Below, one piece after another: positions 16,454-39,237 of a DNA stretch of 43,410 nt (positions within the stretch are counted from its first letter, which is position 1; the number at the start of each line of letters is the position of its first letter). The stretch lies in the NCBI GenBank assembly GCA_013388895.1, contig JACAEK010000022.1, forward strand, positions 1 through 43,410. The letters are read 5' to 3'. The notes below the pieces were generated by a model. The model had not been told where the DNA came from, did not search any database, and saw only the letters and a list, made by a program, of their open reading frames with translations. The stretch comes from Candidatus Bathyarchaeota archaeon (GTDB taxonomy: Archaea; Thermoproteota; Bathyarchaeia; Bathyarchaeales; Bathycorpusculaceae). The translations under genes were made by a program, and so were the position numbers.

Positions 16454-18385
16454 TTAGGGAACGCATTGGGTTCCAAAGTTCATGCCCAGTAAGACTACGT
16501 CTTTCGCGTTTATCCATCCGTCCATATTCAAGTCAGCATTTGGGTTCCAGTTTGGTTCGCCTGGGTGTGTGCCGAAGGCATTTCCCATGATTATGGCGTC
16601 TAAGGCGTTTACGTAACCGTCACCATTAATGTCGCCCATCAGTTTCACGTGTATGTCACCGTCTACTAGCACGTTGTTTGCGGTGTCAACTTCGTAGGGT
16701 ACTTCGCTCGCCTCAGCACTTAACGTGTAATTATGGCAGGGTTCTTGCCACGCTTCATTTATGCTAAGAAGGAAAGTCAAAGTGGTTGTCGCGTTTGGTG
16801 CTAGCCCCGTGACTTCCTGCTCACCCATTTCGTGGCCGTCCATGAAGAGTGTTACGTTGAAGGTTTCGCTTATATCGCCTAAGTTCTCTGCTGTGACGTT
16901 TACTTCTATAGTCCATGATCTGTAAACTTCATAGAATTCTGGCGTGATGTCAATTATCGCGACATCTCGAATTAGAATGCTTACGAATCCGTCTTCAGCC
17001 TCATGTGTTATTTGACCGCCCAAAGAGTCAGAGAGTGAAGTGTCAGTGAGATCAAGCACCGTTGCTCCGAAAGACTGAACTTGGAAGAATATTGTGACTA
17101 AAGTTACTGGGTCTGTGGTCGTTAAGGATTCTGCCGGCGGGTAATATTGAACTTTTACCCACATTTTGCCAGCCGTGTCGTTCAAGGCAAATTCCACTTC
17201 GAACGACGTTTCATTTTCAAATGGATAGAATATCACGCCAAGACCATTGAGTACATCAGTGTCATATAGTAGAGTGAATTCGAAGTCGTAGAGGTCTGTG
17301 ACGTTAGCCACATTAATGTTTATCGAGAATTCTGCAGGAGGAACCATCGTTGGGTCTATTATTTCCGGCGGATCAACGTAGAGTTTCGGCATTAGTACGT
17401 TGTTGAAGTAGCCGTCTTGTGTTATGTGAACAAGTTCTACTCCTTCGGCATCATAGAGATGCGTGTCATATAGATGAAGCGGTGAGTCACCTATGTCCAA
17501 CACGTGGAATGTCAATTCAACTAATGTTCCGTCACCGCTCGCCACGACTCCGGCTGACGTCAAATTCACAGAAGCATAGATGTTACCTAAAATGTTATCA
17601 ATTGTGAACATAAACATTGTTGTTCCAAAAGATTGCAGTAAATCTCCTTCTTCAGCAAGCGTACATTCTATGACAGATGCATTGTAGCTCAATTGGAGAG
17701 TGAAGCCGTGAAGATATGACGCGTCAAGTGCAGTGATGTTTACGTGAAACTCTGTGCTGGGAACCAGCGAGGGATTTGCAATAGACGGAGGCGTTACTTT
17801 AACTGTTATCTCTTCTACAGGCGGTCTTGGACTGATAAATTGGTATAATCCATGACTGAAAATGTGAGGCAACTCATTTCCTTGGTCATCAAGTAGGCAA
17901 TAAACGTAGCCAGCTGCTGGCTCTAAAGTTAAATCCGTTGAAAGCGTTCCTCCATCTGGCGGGGCTTGAGTGATAGTGAAGGTAAGGTTGACTAGCCAAA
18001 ATGTCCCAGTTTTTGGAGTAGAGGGGGCTCTTGCAGTCAAGCTTTGATGATATGTTCCAGCAACGTTATCTATTGACGGTGAAACCCAAGGGCCTAGAAA
18101 GGCAGGCCAAACGCCGAAGTTTATTGTTTCTGTCGTGCAGTTAATCATGCCAGGTGTCCACGTTAAGAAGAATTCCCAACCGTAGAAGTCTGCAACGTTT
18201 TCGACGATTATGCTTATTTTGAAGGTGGTTCCAACCGAAGTAGTATTAGTGTAAAAAATGTGTTCTGGAGGTTCGACTTTGAGGTTTGTTGCTTGCGAAA
18301 AAGCAGGCATTATAGGTAAGACAGCGAGTAGCATTGTTGTGATTAGCATGATCATTGCAAAAGTTATAGATTTCTTATTGTACAT
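16454..18385 (-). CDS. Three-cohesin protein with C-terminal dockerin (adaptor-scaffoldin-like)
   Basis: A 643-residue secreted protein without an anchor. Signal peptide (1-31); cohesin-like domain 1 (about 36-185, with FYGWEFFLTWTPGM); cohesin-like domain 2 (about 193-330); cohesin-like domain 3 (about 336-470); a CARDB-like beta-sandwich (about 475-582, AIIDITPEFYEVYRSW); and a type I dockerin (about 583-640) with two calcium loops, DINGDGYVNALD and DLNMDGWINAKD. Having both cohesins and a dockerin, it could bridge an anchor cohesin and dockerin clients. GGAGAAGGGAGAAAA precedes the ATG at 18385. It is the only protein in the window with both partners. Confidence 0.87.
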   Translation of the reverse strand: MYNKKSITFAMIMLITTMLLAVLPIMPAFSQATNLKVEPPEHIFYTNTTSVGTTFKISIIVENVADFYGWEFFLTWTPGMINCTTETINFGVWPAFLGPWVSPSIDNVAGTYHQSLTARAPSTPKTGTFWLVNLTFTITQAPPDGGTLSTDLTLEPAAGYVYCLLDDQGNELPHIFSHGLYQFISPRPPVEEITVKVTPPSIANPSLVPSTEFHVNITALDASYLHGFTLQLSYNASVIECTLAEEGDLLQSFGTTMFMFTIDNILGNIYASVNLTSAGVVASGDGTLVELTFHVLDIGDSPLHLYDTHLYDAEGVELVHITQDGYFNNVLMPKLYVDPPEIIDPTMVPPAEFSININVANVTDLYDFEFTLLYDTDVLNGLGVIFYPFENETSFEVEFALNDTAGKMWVKVQYYPPAESLTTTDPVTLVTIFFQVQSFGATVLDLTDTSLSDSLGGQITHEAEDGFVSILIRDVAIIDITPEFYEVYRSWTIEVNVTAENLGDISETFNVTLFMDGHEMGEQEVTGLAPNATTTLTFLLSINEAWQEPCHNYTLSAEASEVPYEVDTANNVLVDGDIHVKLMGDINGDGYVNALDAIIMGNAFGTHPGEPNWNPNADLNMDGWINAKDVVLLGMNFGTQCVP

Positions 18386-18586: not shown

Positions 18587-20167
18587 TCAGTAGGATTCTC
18601 CGAAATGTGCGCCTAGTATTATTGCGTCTTTTGCGTTTACGAAGCCGTCTCCGCCTTCAACATCTATGTCTGCTGCAGGGTTATATTCGGGATCGCCTAT
18701 CTCTGAGCCGAATGCGGCGCCCAGGACTATTGCGTCTTTTGCGTTTACGAAGCCGTCTTGGTTTATGTCCCATCTTGGGTATTGCAGTTCAGTAGCCGTT
18801 ACAGTTTGGGTTGTGCTGTTTTGTAGGGATTCGCTGTCAGTTACTGTTAGTGTGACTGAATAGTTTCCAGCCGCTACGTAAGAATGCGATATGGTTGGGG
18901 TTGAAACTGTAGTGATGTTGCCGTCTCCAAAGCTCCATTCGTACTCAACGATTTCTGTCTCTCCTGTTCCGTTCCAGCCAGGCAACGTCGAGGATGCGTC
19001 AAAAGTTATTCTCAAGTTGCCTGAAGGATACCAAATGAAATCTGCTGTTGGACCAGTAGGTGGTTGAACTTCTACTTGTTTAGCGGTTGTGCACCATAAG
19101 CCATCGGTGTCTGTAACATTTAAGGTTACAACGTATGTTATGCTTTGATTGAATTTGTGTGATATGGTTGGACTTGTGCGTGTGGTTTTGTTGCCATCTC
19201 CGAAGTCCCATTGGTATAGGACTATCTCGTCGGCATATCCTTCGGCTGATGATCCGCTTGCGTCGAAATTGACTGTTTGGTTAACGTATGGCTTTGCTGG
19301 TGTGAAGGTAAAGGATGCTTGTGGAGGGACTTCATCATATTGCACATCAAAAGTCGTGCTGCTAGTTGTGAAAGCTACGCCTATGCTTCCAGTTGCTTCT
19401 ACCATGTATGTTCCTGTTCTTGATTCAGGTGAAAGCTTGAAACTTGAGTTATACGAACCGGGTATAGACGGGTTATAGAGGTTTGGACCATCAGTAACTG
19501 TTGTGCCTGGTCCGCGTGTTATGTTGAATGTGTTTGACTTTTCGAAGCAGTATGGAATTCCTTCAGTTATTGGATCTGTGCTGAAAACGCTTGCTACAAC
19601 GGTTGCTCCTCCAATGTATGCCCATGCGGGAATCAGTATTGGCAAGGAAACTTCTGTTTCTAAACCTGCACCTAAAGTCCAGCCCATTGAGTTAAAGCCT
19701 ATTGGAATCAGATTTCCATCGTAAATGGTGGCGGATACTAAGACTGATTTTTCGAACGTATCATAGTTTTTGAAGGCTACTTTCATGACACCTACTGTTC
19801 CGGCCTTGATTCTTGTGGTGGGAGTGGAAGGATTAGAGGCGTTGTATGGAGTAACTCTAAGAATGTCGACCAAGGGACTGAAGGAAAAGTTTCCAGTGGG
19901 CACTGTTCTAAACGAAATTGGACTATCGATCGAGTTGTAGACTCGTATGGCTATTAGTCCATTATCTGCTGGTACTCCATCTACTTCAAGGGTTCCATAG
20001 ATGTTGACTTCTTCTCTGAGAGTAAAAAGCTGTCTGTTAACGTCCACAGAAAGAGTTAGAGTCAATTCTGCTGATGGGTTAAAGTTTGCTGCAAAGCTTG
20101 GATAAGCAAGAATTGGAGATACCAATAAGGCGACAAGTAAGATAACCATAATACATTTGCCTAGCAT
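18587..20167 (-). CDS. Secreted PKD-domain protein with C-terminal dockerin
   Basis: A 526-residue exported protein from the ATG at 20167. Signal peptide (1-26); beta-rich region (about 27-270); two PKD domains (about 280-370 and 375-460) with the classic YQWDFGDGN and YEWSFGDGN cores; and a dockerin (about 465-526). The first calcium loop is regular (DINQDGFVNAKD); the second has an insertion (DIDVEGGDGFVNAKD). The frame is open further upstream to 20239, but a TATA-like box at 20211-20219 and GGGAGAAGGGAA right before 20167 fix the start. Predicted client of a surface cohesin. The N-terminal region resembles no enzyme I know. Confidence 0.87.
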   Translation of the reverse strand: MLGKCIMVILLVALLVSPILAYPSFAANFNPSAELTLTLSVDVNRQLFTLREEVNIYGTLEVDGVPADNGLIAIRVYNSIDSPISFRTVPTGNFSFSPLVDILRVTPYNASNPSTPTTRIKAGTVGVMKVAFKNYDTFEKSVLVSATIYDGNLIPIGFNSMGWTLGAGLETEVSLPILIPAWAYIGGATVVASVFSTDPITEGIPYCFEKSNTFNITRGPGTTVTDGPNLYNPSIPGSYNSSFKLSPESRTGTYMVEATGSIGVAFTTSSTTFDVQYDEVPPQASFTFTPAKPYVNQTVNFDASGSSAEGYADEIVLYQWDFGDGNKTTRTSPTISHKFNQSITYVVTLNVTDTDGLWCTTAKQVEVQPPTGPTADFIWYPSGNLRITFDASSTLPGWNGTGETEIVEYEWSFGDGNITTVSTPTISHSYVAAGNYSVTLTVTDSESLQNSTTQTVTATELQYPRWDINQDGFVNAKDAIVLGAAFGSEIGDPEYNPAADIDVEGGDGFVNAKDAIILGAHFGESY

Positions 20168-20168
20168 T

Positions 20169-20180
20169 TCCCTTCTCCCT
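20169..20180 (-). promoter_or_regulatory. Shared leader element before surface gene (copy 3)
   Basis: Minus-strand AGGGAGAAGGGA ends one base before the ATG at 20167. It settles the start of the PKD-dockerin gene. Confidence 0.5.
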
Positions 20181-20210
20181 CTATTCCGATTTAAAATACT
20201 CTTTTCCAAA

Positions 20211-20219
20211 CTTATATAC
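20211..20219 (-). promoter_or_regulatory. TATA-like box of the PKD-dockerin gene
   Basis: Minus-strand GTATATAAG about 45 bases before the ATG at 20167, giving a 5' leader of about 20 bases that would begin close to the purine-rich leader element. Confidence 0.5.
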
Positions 20220-20265
20220 ATTGTGGAATATTCTTCCACTCACTTCTAAATCTATTATTGCATGA

Positions 20266-26743: not shown

Positions 26744-29053
26744 TTACCCTGCCCAGTTGAATACTGCACCAAGCAGCACTGCATCTTTGGCGTTGACGAA
26801 TCCGTCGCCATTGATGTCGCATGCTGGGTTCCAGTTGTAGTCGCCAGGTGCTGAGCTGAATGCTGCTCCTAGCAAGACTGCGTCTTTAGCGTTGACGAAG
26901 AAGTCCAAGTTGACGTCTTCAGGTATTGTGCTCCAGATGTATACTGGGTAGCCGTCTATGTCAGCGTGGCCTGTCAATGGGTCTGGACTTATGGTGGCTG
27001 TTATGACGTGCAGTCCTCTTGGATAGGTGTCAGTGTAGCTGAATATTGGAACTGGTACACAGGGTATCAGTTCTGGGTTAGAGAATGGACCGAGCACGAC
27101 TACTGTTCCGTTGTAGTATTCGATGGTTATGGTTATGGTGAATACGCTTGGGGGTATTATGCGTTGGAAGTCTTGGTTATGTAGCCAGAATGTGATTGTG
27201 TTGCTTGTGCCTGGTTCAATTACTTTGAGTGTGTCTACTGTTGCGAACATGTCAATTGGGTGATATGCAAAGTGGCGTACGTTAGCCACTAAGTGGTAGT
27301 AGTTTGTTGGGCTGCTGCCTACATAGTCGTAGATCCATGGGCCTGTGCCTACTGAGCATTCTTGTGCCACTGGGTCGAATTCTCGAGTGTGTCCTTCAAG
27401 GAACACTGGTTCCCAAACATGTTTTGGTATGATTGGGAGTCCACCTACCCAGTGCATAGCCCACAATGGCATGTAAATACCATAGTAGACTCTCACTGTG
27501 TATGGGTCGACCTCTTCTGCGTAGACTACGTCAGCCACTAGGGCGTTGTTCCATGAATCTGCAATGTCTCTGACACAGTAAATGCTGAAGATAACGTCGT
27601 CAGCCATGAACTTCTCGTTGGTTGCACCATCCCTTAAGAGTGGTGCGCCGCCTGGTGTTGATCTAGTTAGGCTAGGTGCAATGTCGTGCCAATACACGTC
27701 TTCTCTGAGTTTGAATTCCACGTATGTGGCTGGGCTTCCCTCGTAATCCCATGTTCCCAAGGCCCAGCTTTTTGCTAGCCATGGAAGGTCGTGGCTCATG
27801 TCGTATGGGTCTACGTTTATCAGTGAGTCGTAGATCAAACCCATTATGTTCCAGTCCCAAACCCATTCTGAGTGAACTGGATTAAGCTCTTCAATGTCGT
27901 TCATGAAGCCCCAGTCGATTGTGGCGTCTCCGGCTTTGTACGTGTTCATGAAGGTCCACCAGCTCCACGGGCCGGTTCCTTCAGCGTTGACAACTTTTTC
28001 CCATCCAGTCTTGTAACCGCCGTAGCTGGCGTATGTGAAGACTGGGATTACGCCTACGTCGTCCATGAGGATTTTCTGCATGTTGAACACTGCAACTTTG
28101 GCAGTGGGTATGTCAGGCGCGATTAGCATGGCTTCAGCCTCTAGGTCGAATGCTGGGCTCTGGTAACCTGGATAGTTAGGTGTATACGGGAATGACTGTG
28201 CATATGCGCCTAAGTACAGGAAGTACAGTGTGTCGGGGTCTCTTCCGAAGCTCCAGCCTCCAGTGTAGATGTGGTAGTCGAATTCAACCATCACCTTCTG
28301 GAAACACTCACTTTTTGGAGCTACGTGAAGATCCACGTCGATGACTGCTGCGGTGTATGGACTCCAATCCATTAAGCCTATGTCGATTTCCATTGCATCA
28401 GCCAAGAGCTGACCCATCGCACTTCTGTCTGGGTCATCCTGTCTTGCGTAGAAGACTATAGTAATCTCTTCGCCGCCAGGACCCTCAACATAACCGTCAG
28501 CATCTTGGTCAGTATATCCGTTAGCCTTCAGTATGTTGACTGCTGCCTGGAGATCGTATGGGTATAGGTCTGTGCAGTATGGGTTATACCAGCCTGCAGA
28601 CCATGCTAATGGCGAATCCATTTTGATGGCTAAACCAGCAAGCTGAGTGGCAATAAAAGCGTCTTTGTCAAACATGTGGGCTAAGGCTTTTCGGAACCAA
28701 ATGTCGTCAGTTGGGAACCTCTTCAGGTTCAAGTCGAACTCGCGCATACCTCTGTCAAGGAAGAACGCACGAGCATAAGTAGTCATGTCAGGATCGAGTG
28801 TGTCTAACTCGTCAACTTGAGCAGCCAGAAGAGACCAGTCCATGAAATCTATGTCACAAGCCAGATAAGCCAAGTACTCAGCTGTTTGACTACCCCATGG
28901 AGTGATTAGCATGTTAGGCGTCATAGGACCATAGCCATTATACAACCCATCGTCTGATGGCGCTGGACCAGGATAGAACCACGAAAAGCTTGGTGTTATC
29001 AATGCAAAAGCGAACACTACAACAAATATCGTAGCAACTATTGCCTTTTTCAT
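26744..29053 (-). CDS. Oligopeptide-type ABC substrate-binding protein with dockerin, lobes in permuted order
   Basis: A 769-residue exported protein: signal peptide (1-24); residues about 43-373 match the normally C-terminal half of an SBP_bac_5 protein (DDIWFRKALAHMFDKDAF, YPYDLQAAVNILKANGY, then FMNTYK); residues about 378-600 match the normally N-terminal half (IEELNPVHSEWVWDWNIMGLIYDSLI, LAKSWAL, VEFKLREDVYWHD, ADDVIFSI, IIPKHVWE, GTGPW); residues about 601-710 a beta domain; residues about 711-769 a dockerin with DVNLDFFVNAKD (Gly replaced by Phe) and DINGDGFVNAKD. It would capture oligopeptides or oligosaccharides for the permeases at 31-34 kb. No lipobox Cys is seen, so docking to a cohesin may be what tethers it. 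Confidence 0.9.
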   Translation of the reverse strand: MKKAIVATIFVVVFAFALITPSFSWFYPGPAPSDDGLYNGYGPMTPNMLITPWGSQTAEYLAYLACDIDFMDWSLLAAQVDELDTLDPDMTTYARAFFLDRGMREFDLNLKRFPTDDIWFRKALAHMFDKDAFIATQLAGLAIKMDSPLAWSAGWYNPYCTDLYPYDLQAAVNILKANGYTDQDADGYVEGPGGEEITIVFYARQDDPDRSAMGQLLADAMEIDIGLMDWSPYTAAVIDVDLHVAPKSECFQKVMVEFDYHIYTGGWSFGRDPDTLYFLYLGAYAQSFPYTPNYPGYQSPAFDLEAEAMLIAPDIPTAKVAVFNMQKILMDDVGVIPVFTYASYGGYKTGWEKVVNAEGTGPWSWWTFMNTYKAGDATIDWGFMNDIEELNPVHSEWVWDWNIMGLIYDSLINVDPYDMSHDLPWLAKSWALGTWDYEGSPATYVEFKLREDVYWHDIAPSLTRSTPGGAPLLRDGATNEKFMADDVIFSIYCVRDIADSWNNALVADVVYAEEVDPYTVRVYYGIYMPLWAMHWVGGLPIIPKHVWEPVFLEGHTREFDPVAQECSVGTGPWIYDYVGSSPTNYYHLVANVRHFAYHPIDMFATVDTLKVIEPGTSNTITFWLHNQDFQRIIPPSVFTITITIEYYNGTVVVLGPFSNPELIPCVPVPIFSYTDTYPRGLHVITATISPDPLTGHADIDGYPVYIWSTIPEDVNLDFFVNAKDAVLLGAAFSSAPGDYNWNPACDINGDGFVNAKDAVLLGAVFNWAG

Positions 29054-37163: not shown

Positions 37164-37538
37164 ATGGAGAACCGAAAACAAAGCCTAAAAAACGAAATTT
37201 ACGAAATGTTATACCTAGTAAAGACATGCATAACTGATTTCTGGTTTTGGTTACCGATTTTGTTTATGATCTTCATGTATACACAATTGATAATTTTCTT
37301 CTATATTCATCCTCTTCTCTTGCTTGTAGCGCCCACATTAATATCATTGTATGCGTTGAGGCAAGAAAAGAAAAGAATCAAATCAAAATACAACATTGAA
37401 GGTGGAAAAGTGCTTTCAGCTTCAGACCCTGCTGGGACTGTGCCGCATTCTCCAGATTCAAAATTTAACCTTGAACAGGCAGTAGAAGATTACGTAGGAT
37501 ATCTAAACCGCAAGAAAGATAAGAAAGATTCGTCGTGA
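37164..37538 (+). CDS. Hypothetical two-span membrane protein
   Basis: A 124-residue protein with two hydrophobic helices (FWFWLPILFMIFMYTQLIIFFY and PLLLLVAPTLISLYAL) and a charged, probably cytoplasmic C-terminal half ending KKDKKDSS. A TATA-like TTAAATAA about 40 bases upstream and no ribosome site suggest a short or absent leader. No family recognised. Follows oppF in the same direction, 76 bases later. Confidence 0.65.
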   Translation: MENRKQSLKNEIYEMLYLVKTCITDFWFWLPILFMIFMYTQLIIFFYIHPLLLLVAPTLISLYALRQEKKRIKSKYNIEGGKVLSASDPAGTVPHSPDSKFNLEQAVEDYVGYLNRKKDKKDSS

Positions 37539-37576: not shown

Positions 37577-38215
37577 TTGAGAAAAAGACAGAGACAATTG
37601 CTGCTGGTTTTCTCGATAATCTTGGTCTTATCTGGGCTAATTTTGACGGCGAGCTCGTCAATTTACACCTCAGAAAACGAAGCCACCGTAGAAGAAAACG
37701 GTGTAAGCTACTCACTTTCTAAATCAGATCAAGAAATAACGTTTGGAACAGAAATAAAGCGATATTTCAGCCTTGGAGAGGAAATGACGGTAACGTTTAC
37801 CCATGCTTTTACGCCTCCTTACAACGATTTACTTCCTCCAATAAACTTCACGATTCAGTCACCCAGCAACAAAACGACCATTTTCTGGTACTGGCTGGAA
37901 CCTTACGATACTGATGAGGACACGATAATAGTTAAAACTAATCTAACCGTTTCCAAGGTTGACGGTCTCAAGAGAACAAACTCATCATCTGATTTGGATT
38001 TTGCGGGAGAAGCATTAGAAGATGGAACCTATACCTTAATCTTCACAACATTGTACAACACAAAGTTAAGCTACCTGGCTTTCGTCAAAATAATCACAAC
38101 ATATGATTATCCATATACGCATCTCTTGCCACTAGGAGCAACAATAATGGTCACTGGAACAATTCTTTTAATTGTCTCTTCCAAATTCGGAAGAAAGATC
38201 AAGAAAAATGTCTAA
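37577..38215 (+). CDS. Hypothetical protein with N- and C-terminal membrane spans
   Basis: A 212-residue protein: helix 1 (about 5-27, LLLVFSIILVLSGLILTAS), an extracellular beta-rich domain of about 150 residues (FSLGEEMTVTFTHAFTPPY...), and helix 2 (about 183-203) followed by a basic tail (KFGRKIKKNV), so both ends are cytoplasmic. The start is TTG at 37577 with GAAGGGAAGAG just before it. Downstream, 38227-38259 holds a GGGCAG/CTGCCC inverted repeat with a long loop and nothing else notable. Function unknown. Confidence 0.65.
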   Translation: MRKRQRQLLLVFSIILVLSGLILTASSSIYTSENEATVEENGVSYSLSKSDQEITFGTEIKRYFSLGEEMTVTFTHAFTPPYNDLLPPINFTIQSPSNKTTIFWYWLEPYDTDEDTIIVKTNLTVSKVDGLKRTNSSSDLDFAGEALEDGTYTLIFTTLYNTKLSYLAFVKIITTYDYPYTHLLPLGATIMVTGTILLIVSSKFGRKIKKNV

Positions 38216-38387
38216 AACTTAGTGATGGGCAGGTCTGCACCTTGGCAACAAAGCTGCCCTGCTCAATATGAACAATAGTGAGTTCTGAATACCAAATCTT
38301 GTCAATTTTACATACTAGTTTCTAAGAAACTACCTTTGTCAGACGTCTTGCCTTCAGTTTTTATGAAGAGTTTTTTTTACACTTACC

Positions 38388-38395
38388 TTTATAAG
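38388..38395 (+). promoter_or_regulatory. TATA-like box of the cohesin-regulator gene
   Basis: TTTATAAG 33-40 bases before the ATG at 38428, giving a leader of roughly 10-15 bases that contains the ribosome site GGGGGAAG. The gene therefore has its own promoter. Confidence 0.5.
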
Positions 38396-38427: not shown

Positions 38428-39237
38428 ATGCCTCAGATAAGATGTCCATATTGTGGAGCAACCGTCAACCTAGAAAACCGCAAGGAAACAGACTTCACCA
38501 TCATTCTGAAGTCTTTAGAAAGCAGAGCAAGAAGCTTTTCTGAGCTACTCAAGATAACTGGGTTGCCTAGGAAGACTCTCAACATAAGATTGAAAGAACT
38601 ATGCGGCATGGAAGCAGTAACCAAGAATAAGCTGTACTATTTGAATGGGGCATGCCCCAAGAAGGAATGGCAGAAAAAAATATTGCAGAGGGATTCAATA
38701 TTGTCTAACAAGAGAAAGATACTAGCATTTCTAGTCATTATGTGCATTGGATTGCCAGCAGCAGGAAATTTTGTTCTAGCTATGTTCTTTTCTCCACCTC
38801 CTCCTGAACCAAAGCCCCTCGGAAACCTAATAGTCACAGTGAACGTTGGAGAAGTCTCAGATGTCTATGGTTGGCAGATTGGGCTACGTTTTGACACTGA
38901 AAACCTGAAAGTCGTAAGCGCTATGCCGGGCGATTTCCTTGGAGACCCTGTGGGAGGCACTAGTCTATCGGATCATGTTGAAAATGCAGGAGATACGCTG
39001 TTTTACCGCATTATCGTAAACGATACTTTAGTCTTGTGCCAAACCTTGAAAGGAAGTCGACCCTCAGTAACTGGCAGCGGTTCTCTAGCGATAGTAGAGT
39101 TTGAATACTACTCGACTCCATACGAAAACCCGTACCTAGTTTTCAACGAACCTCCTTGCGACACAATGCTCTTGAGAATGGATGCCTCGGAAATTCCAAT
39201 AGACAAAAATACAGTAACATTGCAATTTGTACCTTAA
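38428..39237 (+). CDS. Predicted transmembrane regulator: CxxC/winged-helix head, membrane span, extracellular cohesin
   Basis: A 269-residue protein of unusual build. Residues 1-12 hold a CPYCG knuckle; about 22-72 a winged-helix domain (FTIILKSLESRARSFSELLKITGLPRKTLNIRLKEL, then a KNKLYYL wing); 97-121 one membrane helix; 122-130 a proline linker; about 131-269 a cohesin-type domain (VTVNVGEVSDVYGWQIGLRFDTENLKVVSAMPGDFL, then VTGSGSLAIVEFEYY). Positive charges before the helix (SNKRK) place the N-terminus inside. By analogy with one-component membrane regulators, dockerin binding outside could alter DNA binding inside. This is inference; dockerin binding is untested, and Cys58 and Cys76 might complete a metal site. 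Confidence 0.85.
   Translation: MPQIRCPYCGATVNLENRKETDFTIILKSLESRARSFSELLKITGLPRKTLNIRLKELCGMEAVTKNKLYYLNGACPKKEWQKKILQRDSILSNKRKILAFLVIMCIGLPAAGNFVLAMFFSPPPPEPKPLGNLIVTVNVGEVSDVYGWQIGLRFDTENLKVVSAMPGDFLGDPVGGTSLSDHVENAGDTLFYRIIVNDTLVLCQTLKGSRPSVTGSGSLAIVEFEYYSTPYENPYLVFNEPPCDTMLLRMDASEIPIDKNTVTLQFVP

Follow-up and report, generated by a model that had tools for sequence, protein, structure and literature searches.

A single-pass membrane winged-helix protein with an outer cohesin domain and a conserved promoter footprint in Bathyarchaeia

Results

The window analyzed here is a stretch of 43,410 nt of a Candidatus Bathyarchaeota archaeon (contig JACAEK010000022.1). At 38428..39237 on the forward strand it carries an ORF with an ATG start codon, present in a single copy in this genome and backed by 12 full-length relatives, whose 269-aa product (hereafter the regulator) consists of a CPxCG knuckle, a winged helix, one transmembrane (TM) helix, and an outer cohesin. 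Invariant residues and pairwise identity support the cytoplasmic knuckle at residues 1–18 (38428..38481, +); its CPYCG motif lies at residues 5–10, and C6, P7, C9, and G10 are invariant in 13/13 members of the family. A complete zinc ribbon was rejected, as the CxxC stands alone and a second conserved pair is absent. The winged helix covers residues 19–75 (38482..38652, +) and is supported by HTH_5, HxlR, and HTH_20 matches in relatives and by the structure model (H19–31, H37–44, H48–60, E64–67, and E69–72; pLDDT about 90), with R48, K49, T50, L51, R54, and L55 invariant across the 13 members.

A linker joins the winged helix to the sole hydrophobic segment of the protein, residues 97–122 (38716..38793, +), which the structure model renders as a helix at residues 91–121. 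Because the N-terminal flank of this segment carries a charge of +3 and its C-terminal flank 0, the predicted topology is N-in/C-out, and a proline-rich stalk separates the TM helix from the cohesin at residues 131–269 (38818..39234, +). One TM segment precedes the cohesin in all 13 members, the helix of G153 being weak by hydropathy. The regulator is thus a single chain across the membrane with its winged helix in the cytoplasm and its input domain outside, i.e. it has the architecture of a membrane one-component regulator. The initial annotation had proposed a CPYCG knuckle and a winged helix ahead of one TM helix from the letters alone, and the residues, segment, and model given above bear this out.

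Pfam matches are weak on the single sequence, and the cohesin and winged-helix assignments are therefore firm only when the relatives are included. Specifically, the window protein scores 16.3 bits (E 0.012) against Pfam Cohesin (PF00963), below the curated cut-off of 24.1, and reaches E 0.1 for HTH_5, also below cut-off; a search of the PDB with this one sequence returned no matches. Across the family, by contrast, Pfam Cohesin is matched in 10/13 members (best E 1.6e-8) and HTH_5 in 9/13 (best E 3.4e-6), and a PDB search with the family profile hits cohesins at E 6e-13. Modeled alone with AlphaFold, residues 131–269 form a beta sandwich (pLDDT 89, pTM 0.83), and all Foldseek matches of this domain at E<=0.001 are cohesins, with query-normalized TM scores of 0.53–0.63. 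Cohesins fill all top rows for both the full model and the cohesin alone, type II first, and an archaeal cohesin from A. fulgidus (2xdh) is among the top matches (TM 0.58–0.60). The outer domain accordingly has the cohesin fold that had been proposed and not that of another kind of sandwich, and the regulator is confirmed as a single-pass membrane winged-helix protein with an outer cohesin.

An initial scan of named genomes gave no homologues, and family profiles proved necessary. Relatives were sought in 91 genomes of the family and then 257 genomes of the class. Five full-length relatives were found in the former and seven more in the latter, and the 12 named records retrieved are all Candidatus Bathyarchaeota; the same architecture, which the initial annotation had suggested looking for in related genomes, is therefore present there. 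Including the window protein, the 13 orthologs occur one per genome in families f1, f4, f6, f7, and f9, which belong to one Bathyarchaeota order. In one of them (G185) two PKD domains are inserted between the TM helix and the cohesin, which stays at the far end. Among the members, the knuckle has a mean pairwise identity of 72%, the winged helix of 56%, the TM helix of 30%, and the cohesin of 33%, so that the winged helix is better conserved than the cohesin. With a profile built from the 79 N-terminal columns, exactly the 13 members are retrieved at E<=2e-38 and the next match follows only at E 1e-8, which argues that the CPxCG-winged-helix module is dedicated to this cohesin in the class. 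Both domains are constrained, as dN/dS in the G067/G068 pair is 0.03 for the winged helix and 0.15 for the cohesin.

The regulator gene is predicted to have its own promoter and a near-leaderless transcript. Its TATA box, TTTATAA, lies at 38388..38394 (+), about 34 nt before the ATG and in the same position in relatives, and is preceded by the proximal element GTTTTTTTTACACTTA (38370..38385, +), which is conserved 5' of the TATA box in 13/13 members and is the proposed binding site of the regulator. In general form, the footprint GTTTYTTTTACRC-N5-TATA occurs upstream of all 13 regulator genes, although the regulator proteins are mostly just 31–58% identical; GTTTYTTTTACRC precedes the TATA box by five bases and the start codon by about 57–64 bases. 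Across the 13 promoters, columns within the element carry close to 2 bits of information each, and those of its upstream flank carry little. In G153 the TATA-proximal copy differs at one position (GTTTCGTTTACAC), with an exact copy 42 nt further upstream.

A palindrome, GTTTCTAAGAAAC in the window (38318..38330), is a proposed second binding site, 52 nt or five helical turns upstream of the proximal element. It is recognizable, as GTTTCTWAGAAAC, upstream of the element in only 6/13 genomes (with one mismatch in G072), at spacings of 52, 52, 53, 53, 53, and 63 nt. Together with the 42 nt of G153, the distances between paired sites correspond to 4, 5, and 6 turns of DNA, and such whole-turn spacing would be selected if one protein bound cooperatively to two sites.

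The exact composite element with TATA is found at 14 places in 11/257 genomes, all of them regulator carriers, and the remaining two carriers (G045 and G153) have it at the regulator with one mismatch. This association suggests that the regulator itself binds the element, although another factor could do so. Reversed-pattern controls gave 24 matches at up to one mismatch, and one-mismatch sites away from the regulator are therefore regarded as background. Both the footprint and the composite element are new here.

The promoter evidence also bears on whether the protein regulates transcription at all, since it could be a membrane protein that tethers DNA, or one whose HTH serves for protein contacts. 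A single CxxC knuckle and a small winged helix are not exclusive to regulators, but the invariant recognition-helix residues and a gene-specific footprint common to a second gene make such a function highly improbable.

Three exact elements lie away from the regulator, in G181, G195, and G072. In the first two genomes the extra element sits just before a gene for a membrane protein of about 210 aa that is unlinked to the regulator, and this protein is homologous to the product of the gene directly 3' of the regulator in G067, G068, and G045 (phmmer about 1e-24 to 1e-32). Being adjacent to the regulator in some genomes and element-bearing in others, the gene is tied to the regulator and represents a candidate second target in two genomes. 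Its loci include L256:3354-4037, L261:1613-2242, L031:11281-11877, and L102:10852-11481; the one member scanned has no Pfam match. The gene is present in 14/257 genomes (6/13 carriers vs. 8/244 noncarriers, P = 1e-5) and was not detected in the window's genome. The footprint and the second gene are in keeping with a one-component regulator that controls its own gene and has a small regulon. The membrane protein of about 210 aa may also be a signaling partner of the regulator.

Several further sites were noted. The second exact element of G072 (C14:4108) precedes another ORF (L257:3391-4155), and elsewhere in this genome (C31; L264:2809-3149) a one-mismatch element and a TATA box lie upstream of a small HTH_45-like winged-helix gene. 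In G067 (C86; L259:2017-2975), a one-mismatch palindrome and a one-mismatch element precede an ORF whose product resembles beta-helix surface proteins; genes for similar proteins adjoin the regulator in G067 and G068 and also lie within the window. The data give no case for a wider regulon: the one-mismatch palindromes and elements inspected elsewhere in the window's genome (C18, C21, C37, C45, and C53) are inside genes or have no fitting downstream gene, and total near-match counts there do not exceed the reversed-pattern control. Nor do they make a case for a shared operon, as the small membrane genes just upstream in the window (37164-37538 and 37577-38215) have no detectable kinship to the small membrane genes beside the regulator in other genomes.

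Versions without the winged helix indicate that the cohesin can function independently of the regulatory part. Such TM-cohesin homologs occur in G064, G066 (two), and G089; the three included in the cohesin tree all branch within the regulators, and genes of this kind adjoin dockerin and ABC genes in G064 and dockerin genes in G066. The element is absent at three of the four genes, while G089 keeps a two-mismatch version at −61. Divergent to the G089 gene lies a separate small winged-helix gene (HTH_45; L009:2240-2524), which by eye is similar to the HTH_45-like gene of G072.

These forms favor a reading in which the cohesin is first of all a surface anchor that holds dockerin proteins at the membrane, such as the solute-binding protein belonging to the ABC transporter nearby, and the winged helix merely autoregulates the amount of anchor without sensing occupancy. 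The only exact element in the window's genome is indeed that of the regulator's own promoter. However, in G181 and G195 an unlinked second gene carries the element too, the winged helix is conserved more strongly than the cohesin half of the protein, and an autoregulatory DNA-binding domain on the anchor's own chain would couple both functions anyway; we consider a pure anchor rather unlikely.

A cohesin is joined to a winged helix in a second manner in Bathyarchaeia. In G075 (C44; L040:9722-10603), a signal/TM segment is followed by a cohesin (PF00963, 1.7e-10), a TM helix, and a C-terminal DUF7343 winged helix (1.1e-16), both matches exceeding Pfam cut-offs, and another cohesin-TM gene starts 13 nt downstream. 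This fusion looks independent of the regulator because its cohesin groups with secreted ones in the tree. In addition, 18 adjacent pairs of a DUF7343 gene followed by a cohesin gene were found in 16 Bathyarchaeia genomes, on the same strand and within about 45 nt or slightly overlapping. Each of four pairs read directly encodes a membrane protein that ends in a DUF7343-like winged helix and, after it, a small cohesin-TM protein; two-gene units of this type lie at L146:92-1731, L147:1-1747, L173:895-2496, and L139:3137-4720.

The initial annotation had pointed to dockerin proteins in the neighborhood, and Dockerin_1 is indeed found in three ORFs about 9–22 kb from the regulator, each a candidate docking partner. 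The nearest (26744..29053, −) is a family 5 solute-binding protein (SBP_bac_5, 5e-32) with a C-terminal dockerin (4.6e-7), beside a Dpp-type ABC transporter; the others are a PKD protein with a dockerin (18587..20239, −; 1.1e-5) and a secreted protein with cohesins, CARDB, and a dockerin (16454..18385, −; Dockerin_1 2e-10, Cohesin 8.6e-9). Within these ORFs the dockerins occupy 26771-26920, 18614-18769, and 16487-16636, respectively. Overall, the window's genome encodes 13 dockerins and two cohesins over cut-off, plus weaker cohesins. A Dpp-type transporter within about 10 kb of the regulator, together with a DNA ligase close by, is found in the window, G067, G068, G045, and G072; in G045 and G072 the contigs stop within the solute-binding genes, so that the ends of these genes are not covered.

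Dockerins are present in 13/13 carriers vs. 104/257 genomes overall (Fisher P = 5e-6, without phylogenetic correction), and carriers have a median of 13 dockerins vs. 3 in other dockerin-positive genomes. Within family f6, several genomes without the regulator match the carriers in dockerin number and the difference largely vanishes; the association with dockerin counts is confounded by phylogeny. Beyond the regulator's own promoter, no exact element was found 5' of dockerin or cohesin genes in the window's genome, and we found no link between the regulator and control of dockerin genes.

Cohesins are dockerin receptors and the carriers encode dockerins, and for these reasons a dockerin is the most likely ligand of the regulator cohesin. 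The fold could instead sense the mechanical state of the S-layer or a different ligand, such as a polysaccharide, another cohesin, or a membrane partner. In the tree, the cohesins of the regulators are for the most part separate from secreted ones, their surface is divergent (33% mean identity), and the co-regulated protein of about 210 aa, whose presence correlates with the regulator, could itself be the ligand. With dockerins encoded by all carriers and dockerin-binding cohesins first in Foldseek, however, we regard a nondockerin ligand as unlikely.

Discussion

Our preferred reading, to which we assign a probability of roughly 0.55, is that the window encodes a one-component, single-pass membrane transcription regulator that acts at an element in its own promoter and has an outer cohesin as an input domain responding to dockerin. 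The winged helix in the cytoplasm would bind, probably in dimeric form, GTTTCT-type half-sites in the short element abutting its own TATA box and, in some relatives, also the element at the gene for the membrane protein of about 210 aa. The ligand of the cohesin would be a dockerin-bearing surface protein of the solute-binding, PKD, or scaffold-like kind, and its binding may alter dimer conformation or spacing across the membrane, so that a signal passing through one helix would change activity on the promoter. Either activation or repression is possible, as the element abuts the TATA/BRE region.

A tentative extension, which we hold somewhat less probable than its rejection, is that the regulator serves as a checkpoint of surface assembly, reading the occupancy of its cohesin and adjusting its own level and that of its membrane partner. 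Membrane winged-helix regulators coupled to a cohesin would then have arisen in Bathyarchaeia through two unrelated domain architectures. If so, docking capacity would be matched to the supply of dockerin proteins.

Cohesins are docking domains familiar from the machines that digest cellulose. Cohesin–dockerin pairs are treated as structural glue, and in archaea they are common but unexplained. If our reading is true, this glue becomes a signal, and a cell of these uncultured archaea may adjust gene activity according to the proteins docked on its surface, which would be the first regulatory role for archaeal cohesins and dockerins. Because cohesin–dockerin pairs are interchangeable, the regulator could then also serve synthetic biology as a modular switch from surface to promoter. 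The footprint makes it directly testable, with a short promoter, a short cytoplasmic domain, and about 14 candidate dockerins.

Among known systems, the ToxR/CadC-type regulators of bacteria have an N-terminal winged helix of the OmpR type, a single TM helix, and an outer C-terminal input domain. The regulator shares this layout but is archaeal, and the winged-helix type and outer domains of ToxR/CadC differ from its own; to our knowledge, none of them has a cohesin. Closer in host are ArnR and ArnR1 of Sulfolobus acidocaldarius, which are likewise archaeal, membrane-bound one-component regulators with an N-terminal HTH and bind defined promoter boxes (PMC6396743). In ArnR, however, the HTH is followed by HAMP and a sensing domain and then by two C-terminal TM helices, whereas here it is followed by one helix and an outer cohesin; with no Pfam match to HAMP and one TM segment, the regulator lacks the features of the ArnR family.

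The RsgI anti-sigma factors of Clostridium and Acetivibrio are also membrane-associated, with a cytoplasmic regulatory end and an outer domain of a carbohydrate system (CBM3, CBM35, CBM42, or PA14; none of those listed is a cohesin) (PMC3413522). Unlike the regulator, they are bacterial, act through SigI and not on DNA, and read polysaccharide with their outer domains (PMC3413522); the window protein has no RsgI match in Pfam or NCBIfam and its host is archaeal, which places it outside this group. Scaffoldins differ in being secreted or surface proteins with repeated cohesins and no cytoplasmic domain, whereas the regulator has one cohesin and a cytoplasmic winged helix.

The cohesin fold and the dockerin-bearing solute-binding protein in the window recall the noncellulosomal systems of archaea, i.e. 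A. fulgidus (2xdh) and the ANME archaea, in which NikA/OppA-type solute-binding proteins bear dockerins and archaeal cohesin–dockerin binding is reported as verified (PMC9012536); by contrast with the regulator, these cohesins have no reported DNA-binding part. TMEM132, an animal membrane protein family predicted to act in adhesion and tied to the cytoskeleton, has an outer cohesin homologue on a membrane protein and no described DNA-binding domain (PMC6030884). A limited search of the open-access literature returned no published regulator with a cohesin input domain, in agreement with the initial annotation, which was likewise aware of none that senses through a cohesin.
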